A stretch of DNA of 37,886 nucleotides, taken from positions 1 through 37,886 of the IMG/VR virus record IMGVR_UViG_3300017755_000020; one strand, written 5' to 3'. The notes under the pieces were generated by a model that ran no database searches, was not told the origin of the DNA, and saw nothing but the letters and a program-made list of their open reading frames with translations. Below are positions 11,777 through 35,111 of this stretch, piece by piece. Numbering within the stretch: position 1 is the stretch's first letter; the number at the start of each line of letters is the position of its first letter. Source of the stretch: a virus. Position numbers and translations under genes: made by a program.

Positions 11777-12181
11777 GTGCCAGCACAGACTTTTTCACAG
11801 GGATTCAAAGATATTTCTTTATCCTTTAAAAAGCATCCAGTTACAAATGACATCTTGGTTTTGAAAAACGAGGATGCCATAAAACGCTCTGTGCAAAATT
11901 TAGTTCGTATAAATTTCGGTGAAGTATTTTTCAATAGATTAGTTGGCACAAAAGTAAGTGGATCATTATTTGAATTGGCAAGTTCAGATTTTGTTGATCC
12001 TATGAAATCGGAAATAGAAACAACTCTAAACAATTTTGAACCAAGAGTAAAACTAACTGATGTTGATTTTATATCAACTCCAGATCAAAACTCTCTTGAA
12101 GTAACTATATTTTATGACATTGTTGGACTTTCTGCTCCAACACAAACAGTCACATTCGTTCTAGAACCAACAAGGTTATAA
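11777..12181 (+). CDS. 25: Baseplate wedge protein gp25
   Basis: A 134-residue GPW/gp25-family protein that forms part of the inner baseplate wedge and sheath-initiation complex. It shows the family pattern: N-terminal FSQGFKDISLSFKKHP, VKN-like LVRINFGEVFFNRLVG, then the alternating segment VDPMKSEIETTLNNFEPRVKLTDV and a final beta hairpin. The length matches T4 gp25 (132 residues). The start is GTG at 11777; no in-frame ATG precedes it after the terminator. Its stop TAA overlaps the gp6 ATG (TAATG). The first gene of the late block, downstream of two late-promoter-like boxes. Confidence 0.92.
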   Translation: MPAQTFSQGFKDISLSFKKHPVTNDILVLKNEDAIKRSVQNLVRINFGEVFFNRLVGTKVSGSLFELASSDFVDPMKSEIETTLNNFEPRVKLTDVDFISTPDQNSLEVTIFYDIVGLSAPTQTVTFVLEPTRL

Positions 12182-25751: not shown

Positions 25752-27290
25752 ATGCCAGCTGTCATAACCGATCAGATAAGAGTTCTAAATGCGACGAATT
25801 TCGTAAGTGGAATTTCGACGACTGACAACAGTTATTATGTCTTCATAGGTTTACCAAATGCGACTTCTGTCGCATCGGATTGGAATACAAATACTCCTTC
25901 CCCGATTGATAACTTTGACGAACATGATAACATATATGACACTCTTATATCTGCTAAAAAAATAACATCAAGTGATGTGCTAAGAGTAATCAAGAAGATA
26001 TCTTGGTCATCAGGAACGATATATGAGATGTATCGTCAAGACTATAGTATAAACAAACTTAGTCCACAAACAAATTCCACGAGTTTATATAACACAAATT
26101 TTTATGTTATGAACTCTGATTTCAGAGTGTATGAGTGCATTTACAATGGTGCTTCACCTTCAAATAGTGGTGCAGGTGTTATATCATTAGAGGAACCAGT
26201 ACATACTGATCTTCAACCAAGACTTGAAAGTGATGGATATATTTGGAAATATCTTTATACTATTAAACCTAGTGATATTATAAAATTTGATAGTGCTGAT
26301 TATATACCTGTCCCTGCTGATTGGTTGACAAGCACTGATACTGCAGATGTAAGAAATGCAGCAGTTGATGGTAAAATCGAAACCATTGTTATTGAAGACG
26401 TTACAACTGCTTCTTATCAATTCAATGGCACTAAGAACTCTGTCCCTATAAGGGGAGATGGATCTGATGGGCTGGCATCTGTTACGTTCATCAATGGTAA
26501 ACCTTCTGCTGTTCAGGTGACTAACGGAGGAAGTGGATACTCATTTGCTACTTTGGATTTAGATGATGTAGTGACAGGAACGGGTGCATCATTTTCTGTA
26601 ATCATCCCACCACCAGGTGGACATGGTGCTGACATCTACAGAGAGATGGGAGCAAACAAAATTCTTGTGTACTCAAGAATAGAAAATAGCGATGTGACGA
26701 ATCCTGATTTCCCTACAGGCAACCAGTTTGCACGTATAGGAATTGTAGAAAACCCTTTAGCACATGGAAGTAATAATTTACTAACTGCTTCATCTGCCTC
26801 AGGTGTCTATGGAGTGCGTCTTACAGGTGCAGCGACAACAAGTATGACTGTTGCTGTTGACGGACAAATATCACAAACAGTTGGAGTTGGGTCAACTGCT
26901 GTGGGACAAATTATAGGATACGACCCAATAACAAAATCATTACAGTATTGGCAAGACAGATCCCTTGCTACAAATGATACTTCAGGTAATAAACCCACCT
27001 TTGGTTACAAACTAAATAGATTCACTGCGACACCTGCTACTGGCGGTAACTCAAATCTTATTGTTACTACCACAACAGGTACGGAGACCCTAGCTATTGA
27101 TACAGCATTCACTGGAGTATCGACTACAGTAAATGCTAGAACATATTACTTTGGTCAAACTTATAATAGTGGTTTAGCGAATCCAGAAATTAAAAAGTAT
27201 TCTGGAAATATAATTTACATAGACCACAGACCAGAAGTTACTAGAGCAACTAACCAACGTGAAGATATTAAAATCATCTTAGAATTCTAA
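25752..27290 (+). CDS. 8: Baseplate wedge protein gp8
   Basis: A 512-residue homologue of T4 gp8 (334 residues), the wedge protein that joins gp7 and gp10. It is recognised by segments that align by eye with T4 gp8: DGYIWKYLYTIKPSDIIKF followed by DYIPVPADWL in the middle, and the C-terminal IIYIDHRPEVTRA...EDIKIILEF (T4 has MIYMENRPPI...EEINILFTF). The N-terminus (YYVFIGLPNATSVAS and DVLRVIKKISW) is the usual cyanophage form. It is longer than T4 gp8 through a beta-rich insertion at about 225-400. A 2-bp gap separates it from the next gene. Confidence 0.85.
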   Translation: MPAVITDQIRVLNATNFVSGISTTDNSYYVFIGLPNATSVASDWNTNTPSPIDNFDEHDNIYDTLISAKKITSSDVLRVIKKISWSSGTIYEMYRQDYSINKLSPQTNSTSLYNTNFYVMNSDFRVYECIYNGASPSNSGAGVISLEEPVHTDLQPRLESDGYIWKYLYTIKPSDIIKFDSADYIPVPADWLTSTDTADVRNAAVDGKIETIVIEDVTTASYQFNGTKNSVPIRGDGSDGLASVTFINGKPSAVQVTNGGSGYSFATLDLDDVVTGTGASFSVIIPPPGGHGADIYREMGANKILVYSRIENSDVTNPDFPTGNQFARIGIVENPLAHGSNNLLTASSASGVYGVRLTGAATTSMTVAVDGQISQTVGVGSTAVGQIIGYDPITKSLQYWQDRSLATNDTSGNKPTFGYKLNRFTATPATGGNSNLIVTTTTGTETLAIDTAFTGVSTTVNARTYYFGQTYNSGLANPEIKKYSGNIIYIDHRPEVTRATNQREDIKIILEF

Positions 27291-34358: not shown

Positions 34359-34493
34359 ATGATAAACGATTTTTTAGACAACCTAGCAGCACATCAACAC
34401 CAAAAGATACAAGAACCTTGTGTTGGATGTGGTTGTATGTGTCCTACTGACTGTGAATGTTATGATTGTGATGACTGTTCTTGTGCATCATGA
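34359..34493 (+). CDS. 44-residue cysteine-rich protein
   Basis: The ATG at 34359 follows the DUF4815 gene by seven bases. The product begins MINDFLDNLAAHQHQK and ends in a 22-residue stretch with nine cysteines: CVGCGCMCPTDCECYDC followed by DDCSC. The CxC, CxxC and acidic spacing resembles a metallothionein or zinc/iron-binding knuckle. No known family is recognised. The longer open frame to 34281 lies inside the previous gene and is rejected. Its stop overlaps a following ATG (ATGA). A metal-binding virion or assembly role is possible. Confidence 0.65.
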   Translation: MINDFLDNLAAHQHQKIQEPCVGCGCMCPTDCECYDCDDCSCAS

Positions 34494-34627
34494 TCAATGC
34501 ATATTCTTTAGCAGCAGAAATTCTGGAGAAAACTTTAGATGAAACATACCCCATCAAAAAAGATCAAGGTGGAGAATCACCCAAATTTGAAAAGGGATGT
34601 GAGGACAAAGGCGATAGTAAACACTGA
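34490..34627 (+). CDS. Possible 45-residue overlapping gene
   Basis: An ATG overlapping the stop of the cysteine-rich gene (ATGA) opens 45 codons, MINAYSLAAEILEKTLDETY and then a polar tail. The first half looks like a helix and begins with the same MIN as its neighbour. The last 89 bases overlap the coiled-coil gene in another frame, and the polar tail may be noise. It is listed because the ATGA coupling matches the local style. Confidence 0.35.
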   Translation: MINAYSLAAEILEKTLDETYPIKKDQGGESPKFEKGCEDKGDSKH

Positions 34628-34751
34628 CACAGCAGGTTACGAACGCTATATAAATGATAGAGACGCTCGTCGAAGACAACAGAATGAGATTGATGATTTG
34701 AGACATCAAATTGATGTCTTGAAAGACTTGATTATAAAAGAAAATAAATAG
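34539..34751 (+). CDS. Small basic coiled-coil protein
   Basis: A 70-residue protein with an extended basic N-terminus (VENHPNLKRDVRTKAIVNTD), a GYERYINDRDARRRQQ segment and a C-terminal heptad helix, IDDLRHQIDVLKDLI. This layout is common among small conserved proteins of T4-like cyanophages that lie with tail genes; no function is known to me. GGAG at 34525-34528 lies ten bases before the ATG and supports this start. A late-promoter-like ATAAATA at 34744-34750 overlaps its end. Confidence 0.75.
   Translation: MKHTPSKKIKVENHPNLKRDVRTKAIVNTDTAGYERYINDRDARRRQQNEIDDLRHQIDVLKDLIIKENK
34744..34750 (+). promoter_or_regulatory. Late-promoter-like ATAAATA
   Basis: It overlaps the last codons of the coiled-coil gene, 19 bases before the next ATG, matching the late box used elsewhere in this block. 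Confidence 0.4.
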
Positions 34752-34769
34752 AAATACTGAACAAGATCT

Positions 34770-35111
34770 ATGGCAGTCCCATCAGTCAATATACAAATTG
34801 ATAAAGGTACAGACTTCTCATCTACCTTTGACCTAGGTAAAAGAGACAATGACCCATTGGATCTAACTAATTATGATTTTTCAGCGAAGATGCGAAAGCA
34901 TGCTGAAGCAACAGGTAATGTTGCTTTTGCTGCTACGTATGGTGGACAACCTACTAAAGGAAATCTTACTATAAGTCTTACTGCTGCACAAACTGGTATC
35001 ATAACTGCTGGTAGATATGAGTATGACGTTTTGGTTATAAACAGGAATAGTAATGTCAAGACTAAGGTAATCACTGGTCAAGCGTTAGTAATTCCAACAG
35101 CATCACAATGA
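34770..35111 (+). CDS. Small beta-rich structural protein
   Basis: A 113-residue protein (MAVPSVNIQIDKGTDF) with alternating strands: YDFSAKMRKHAEATGN, NLTISLTAAQTGII and GRYEYDVLVINRNSNVKTKV. This is the Ig/BppU-N-like sandwich pattern seen in phage baseplate and fibre adaptor proteins. It lies one base before the next gene. Likely a virion protein near the tail fibre; the exact role is unknown. Confidence 0.65.
   Translation: MAVPSVNIQIDKGTDFSSTFDLGKRDNDPLDLTNYDFSAKMRKHAEATGNVAFAATYGGQPTKGNLTISLTAAQTGIITAGRYEYDVLVINRNSNVKTKVITGQALVIPTASQ

Follow-up and report, generated by a model that had tools for sequence, protein, structure and literature searches.

A candidate metallothionein-like phage peptide on a reusable N-terminal module, probably born by overprinting a signal peptide

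We describe a 44-residue protein, MINDFLDNLAAHQHQKIQEPCVGCGCMCPTDCECYDCDDCSCAS, encoded in a viral sequence of 37,886 nt (IMG/VR record IMGVR_UViG_3300017755_000020; this whole stretch is called the window here) and consisting of a short N-terminal module followed by a tail with nine cysteines. On the evidence of sequence comparisons, we read it as a metallothionein-like metal-thiolate peptide that is carried on a reusable N-terminal module and was probably born by overprinting a signal peptide and later moved, a reading in which our confidence stands at about even. The sequence-only reading of the window had pointed to a cysteine-dense, metallothionein-like peptide, for which both the order and the conservation of the cysteines speak; it was borne out in part, having missed the reusable module, which is the main feature.

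The gene lies in a tail gene block, as had been stated before, and the block includes gp25-like (at 11777), gp6-like (at 12181) and gp8-like baseplate wedge (at 25752) genes in addition to one resembling genes for L-shaped tail fibre assembly (Table 1). Only 7 nt separate its start from the stop of the giant gene, and its TGA shares bases with the ATG at 34490 of the next small gene (ATGA). The best relatives of the gp8-like baseplate wedge protein are those of the single-cell marine viruses AG-345-D19 (65%) and then AG-345-O18 (55%), with values of 50 to 52% for the cyanophages SynMITS9220M01, S-SM2 and Bellamy. From these relatives we take the window to derive from a T4-like phage near the cyanophages. 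The two genes that follow the Cys gene are both conserved, overlap in different frames and both look real; their overlap is a second candidate for dual coding.

Table 1. Features of the window around the Cys gene
Feature	Position	Strand	Remarks
Cys gene, 44 aa, stop included: N-terminal module and Cys tail	34359..34493	+	also in L063 and at least 33 further loci
Shared N-terminal module, residues 1-17, MINDFLDNLAAHQHQKI, (M)xNDFLDNL[AG]xxQ[HY]xK	34359..34409	+	tblastn, tag scans, in-frame extra stretch, AF2 helix 3-15
Nine-Cys tail, residues 21-42, CxxCxCxCx3CxCxxCxxCxC	34419..34484	+	sequence; homologues; shuffles
Giant tail-block gene, phrog_358, 2352 residues	27293..34351	+	3' end adjoins accessory slot
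Small gene MINAYSLAAEILEK...	34490..34627	+	kept in L063 and L392-L396
phrog_473-like virion structural protein	34539..34751	+	E 1.4e-16
phrog_3304/phrog_1084-like gene (L-shaped tail fibre assembly)	34770..35111	+	

The cysteines occupy positions 21, 24, 26, 28, 32, 34, 37, 40 and 42. Nine had been counted in the last 22 residues of the protein; the number holds for a stretch of that length, residues 21 to 42, and residues 23 to 44 hold eight. With four CxC and three CxxC spacings, whose order the homologues keep, the protein has the small size and high cysteine content of a metallothionein in the functional sense. Nine was also the maximum per 22 residues over all open frames of the window, and none of 200 dinucleotide shuffles of the window reached this value (at most 8, mostly 5 to 6). 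Searches of Pfam, PHROGs, NCBIfam and the PDB with the window protein returned no meaningful family. At E values up to 10, no Pfam or NCBIfam metallothionein model matched it or two of its homologues, so that it falls outside the bacterial (SmtA/BmtA) profile, and phmmer against the PDB gave no solved Cys-rich fold, zinc ribbon or other, but only short Cys stretches at E values of 0.15 and 0.44. AF2 predicted a helix over residues 3 to 15 at low confidence (mean pLDDT 54) and no confident fold otherwise.

The C-rich tail, which it had been suggested to seek in other phages, was found in at least 34 further homologues, giving at least 35 Cys-tail loci with the window's own copy (scans for tag plus cysteines and for the tag only). 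At least 33 of these at least 34 homologues lie between phrog_564 and phrog_650 (context B); both neighbours are visible in 30 of them, and in 3 the contig breaks off. L063, which is syntenic with the window, and the window itself are the only two copies in the tail block (context A) among the matches listed, and conservation in context A is therefore that of a single pair. Among the named phages, matches were confined to the N-terminus, the Cys tail being unmatched at E values up to 10, where the low-complexity filter of BLAST may hide such tails. A scan for the cysteine spacing alone returned mostly unrelated Cys-rich stretches, L063 being the only one among the matches listed that also had the tag. 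Looser scans for tag plus cysteines yielded 10 new loci, nine of which (L289-L297) were rejected as chance in all three frames. In L273 (near 7134, minus strand), the Cys gene apparently starts with GTG rather than ATG and overlaps the phrog_564 stop. Near the phrog_564 locus, another phage contig (L254, 1-429) encodes the C-terminal part of a glycine dehydrogenase (GcvP2_C, E 1.3e-32).

Loss of the cysteines in homologues had been named as the result that would speak against the proposal; the cysteines were found to be kept. The search patterns fixed DFLDNL and, in some scans, the first four cysteines, so that the other five cysteines provide the fair test and invariance elsewhere holds partly by construction. 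For four of these five, the first two codon positions were invariant; the fifth, the last, was lost once, in the L133/L262 type, where the last CxC is missing. Across 25 distinct coding sequences (the set leaves aside L265, which reaches the contig end, duplicates, L209, L273 and L341), Cys codons changed between TGT and TGC with one exception, at the last Cys. L341, fetched with no Cys requirement, keeps seven of the nine cysteines and has lost two. Judged from these coding sequences, a part of whose sites the search had fixed, the cysteines are conserved by selection: purifying selection has kept 7 to 10 of them in the tail, with the CxC and CxxC spacings in a fixed order.

The first 17 residues have a far wider distribution than the tail. 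The window protein carries (M)xNDFLDNL[AG]xxQ[HY]xK, a pattern that defines the module when found at or near the N-terminus. In tblastn searches with this protein, its N-terminus matched 17 Synechococcus phage records at weak E values (0.2 to 7), and the proteins in these records have (M)xNDFLDNL in common and wholly different C-termini. IMG/VR DNA scans for the module gave at least 120 and at least 119 stretches. The carriers comprise at least 241 loci with a complete ORF, at least 188 distinct payloads and at least 15 payload clusters, the last a lower bound because single-link clustering merges at least two types. Payloads recognised right behind the tag include thioredoxin, in L358 (near 2986, minus strand; PF13098 E 3e-8, phrog_22 E 1.7e-17), DUF7326/phrog_1352 in Sf-FS3, phrog_15922, phrog_618 and phrog_2067. 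Tag-less homologues of the Sf-FS3 protein exist in S-SKS1 and S-RIM8. Consistently, S-CAM22 and S-8S29 contain an in-frame extra stretch relative to S-RIM2: MIGGNVT-EIKITPQTY in S-RIM2 corresponds to MIGGNVT-NDFLDNLGAEQHRKMNKKVSR-ITPETY in S-CAM22, a 54-nt difference that leaves the old N-terminus in place. We thus conclude from these comparisons that residues 1 to 17 form a reusable N-terminal module found on many different, unrelated small proteins of cyanophage-like phages.

The module is usually present once per genome. With at most one mismatch allowed, all 13 records searched, among them five complete named genomes, had exactly one copy of the tag pattern; of ten more named genomes, five matched it exactly at the tagged gene and the other five lacked such a match (P-HM1, syn9, S-RIM14, P-TIM40 and S-H9-2). 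S-8S29 has a second exact tag match, reading DFFDNF. S-SM2, SynMITS9220M01 and Bellamy have the most frequent tagged type (LREI...TPKK), located just ahead of gp25; no tag was seen upstream of the window's own gp25. In S-SM2, the gene before the tagged gene (L004, 819-1502) is annotated as purM (phosphoribosylaminoimidazole synthetase) in GenBank and as ferredoxin in RefSeq and in PHROGs (phrog_3704). In host genomes, the tag pattern occurred in two MAG contigs only, L301 and L302, both of the LREI type; these are filed as Gammaproteobacteria and Euryarchaeota, and the gene in them is probably binned phage DNA. A role of the tag as a DNA or RNA element was also considered; its third codon positions vary, which is weak evidence since positions 1 and 2 were fixed by the pattern. 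In the open-licence literature, the letters of the tag appeared only in a paper on an unrelated human host-defence peptide, and searches found no account of the module.

In context B, the tail shares its DNA with the signal-peptide region of phrog_650, whose -1 frame it uses, and both frames are open. Shifted by one base from the Cys frame, the sequence reads ...KKKLAMVVVVSALANVQTAMS-VPVVPNFTQG..., a signal-peptide-like stretch followed by the start of mature phrog_650, and the codons of the two C-terminal cysteines also overlap those of the conserved phrog_650 residues VPVVPN. The first base of a Cys codon doubles as the third base of a phrog_650 codon, which is four-fold in most cases, and variation would be expected there if phrog_650 alone mattered. 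Yet in the 23 of the 25 distinct sequences that belong to context B, the 11 four-fold sites that lie in the tail and had not been fixed by the patterns showed 0.82 changes per site compared to 6.05 at 20 downstream sites (Mann-Whitney p 1.2e-5), and a tree built from the downstream part only gave 0.91 and 5.9, respectively. This protection argues for selection on the Cys frame itself. The window and L063 keep the cysteines with no phrog_650 overlap, and in the L063 genome an ordinary phrog_650 lies 70 kb away and has its own clean signal peptide.

The tail-block copy has a different setting. None of 25 relatives of the giant gene's C-terminus has a Cys gene behind it. In L392, L394 and L395, whose flanks are 93 to 94% identical, the giant gene is directly followed by the next gene, that beginning with MINAYSLAAEILEK..., and these are empty sites; other relatives have different small genes in the slot. 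Those in L393, L396, L397 and L398 start with MKTFKQF..., presumably recalling the capsid targeting sequence of T4, and L399-L402 have another small gene type there. Going by these relatives, the tail-block position is an optional, accessory slot for the Cys gene. At the other locus, named cyanophages that have no tag there carry phrog_564 and then phrog_650 with its signal peptide, and in three of eight records (P-HM1, S-RIM14 and S-CAM22; L278, L280 and L284) the -1 frame is Cys-rich with no start codon seen. The window's tail ends in CSC like the phrog_650-linked forms, in which this end lies over a pre-existing VPV, which suggests that the copy in the tail block came from the overprinted site; the argument for this direction is one of parsimony and not of a rooted tree.

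We propose, with confidence somewhat short of even, that T4-like marine phages carry a mobile, usually single-copy module, some 17 residues long, which is inserted in frame at the start of small genes unrelated to one another, and that upstream of phrog_650 it gave rise to a new, selected metallothionein-like gene from the -1 frame, which then moved off the overlap. The module would have landed between phrog_564 and phrog_650, supplying a start, and its frame would have continued into the Cys-prone -1 frame of the signal-peptide region. Selection may then have sharpened this tail into a Cys peptide, and in the lineage of the window a copy would later have moved to the tail block and its accessory slot.

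As to function, the composition and order of the cysteines suggest that nine of them in 22 residues would form a small metal-thiolate cluster with d10 metal ions. During infection, the peptide might in this way act as a cellular buffer for zinc or copper(I) or keep these metals out of reach, and its N-terminal helix might guide it to a putative partner. In marine Synechococcus WH8102, the metallothionein BmtA stores zinc under Zur control (PMC9337993), which makes metal buffering in such hosts a plausible target.

Several other explanations have to be weighed against this. The gene is short, has no apparent good ribosome-binding site and belongs to no database family, as would a spurious ORF with chance Cys codons; this is extremely improbable, since none of the shuffles equalled the real window, the N-terminus is common to unrelated contexts and the codon-position pattern is that of a coding gene, and we rejected a chance ORF on the shuffles and the codon-position tests. 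That the module is the whole function and the tail a by-product, the module needing some carrier and the -1 frame of a signal peptide providing one by accident, would agree with the presence of the same module on at least 15 payload types and its single copy in 13 of 13 records, and this frame is Cys-prone even in the absence of selection: when the signal peptide was recoded at random with synonymous codons at phage frequencies, the mean was 4.5 to 5.3 cysteines. About nine are observed, however, and at least nine arose in only 0.5 to 3% of recodings (probability 0.005 to 0.03); the strong protection of the four-fold sites in the tail (0.82 against 6.05 changes per site) and the retention of the cysteines in the two overlap-free copies also count against a by-product, which we consider unlikely.

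The main rival to metal binding is a use in thiol redox chemistry, because some tagged genes adjoin glutaredoxin or ferredoxin genes and one encodes a thioredoxin domain. The protein would then be a dithiol/disulfide or Fe-S-type carrier of electrons or persulfide for phage glutaredoxin, ferredoxin or ribonucleotide reduction, its module docking to a shared redox partner. Glutaredoxin is the direct neighbour of the tagged gene in S-CAM22 and S-WAM2 and lies one gene off in S-MbCM7, the tagged gene of S-SM2 adjoins the phrog_3704 'ferredoxin', and the L358 payload is the thioredoxin-domain protein (PF13098, E 3e-8). The Cys genes themselves, however, have no recognised redox neighbour in context A or B, nine or ten cysteines in CxC order would be unusual for a relay, and many other tagged payloads have no redox link, leaving this use a minor, if serious, possibility. 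A role as a virion or tail component, or as a metallochaperone for tail proteins, seems less probable still. Its basis is the location of the window and L063 genes in the tail block next to the phrog_473 virion structural gene, together with the precedent of the T4 capsid targeting sequence. Such short N-terminal sequences send different cargo into the head of T4: they direct a protein into the prohead and are cleaved by the prohead protease. One tag per genome, however, fits a general packaging signal poorly. Neither the metal loading onto tail proteins nor the virion component that had been proposed is supported: at least 33 of at least 34 other homologues are at the phrog_564/phrog_650 locus, where a structural role would still be conceivable, and at the window's locus the gene is an optional insert, absent behind the giant gene in all 25 relatives.

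If the metal-thiolate reading is right, this would be a metallothionein-like peptide from relatives of the phages that infect marine picocyanobacteria, organisms with a tight supply of zinc; searches of the open-licence literature found no account of a phage, viral or cyanophage metallothionein. The proposed origin, if true, would be a traceable gene birth by overprinting followed by emancipation, and a clean system for studying the birth of a gene inside the signal peptide of another, with all stages in hand: gene-free relatives, dual-coding forms and an independent copy. The reusable module would point to a common partner in the infected cell that could be retrieved with a single peptide.

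In overprinted phage genes, two frames are read on the same DNA and both are constrained; in contrast to these genes generally, the overlap here is with a signal peptide, and an overlap-free copy also exists. Like the T4 capsid targeting sequence, the DFLDNL module is a short N-terminal sequence on otherwise different small phage proteins, but it differs in sequence, usually occurs once per genome and has no obvious protease site. Unlike SmtA/BmtA, the phage peptide has no Pfam or NCBIfam match and its Cys tail no conserved His; in common with them (PMC9337993), it is small and Cys-rich, and they come from marine cyanobacteria, the hosts of the nearest named phages. The nearest precedent is the beta domain of mammalian metallothionein, which binds three zinc ions as Zn3Cys9 (PMC10243857): the phage peptide has no sequence match to it, carries a separate 17-residue module and is a putative metal binder, but both pack nine cysteines into few residues, with many CxC and CxxC spacings.
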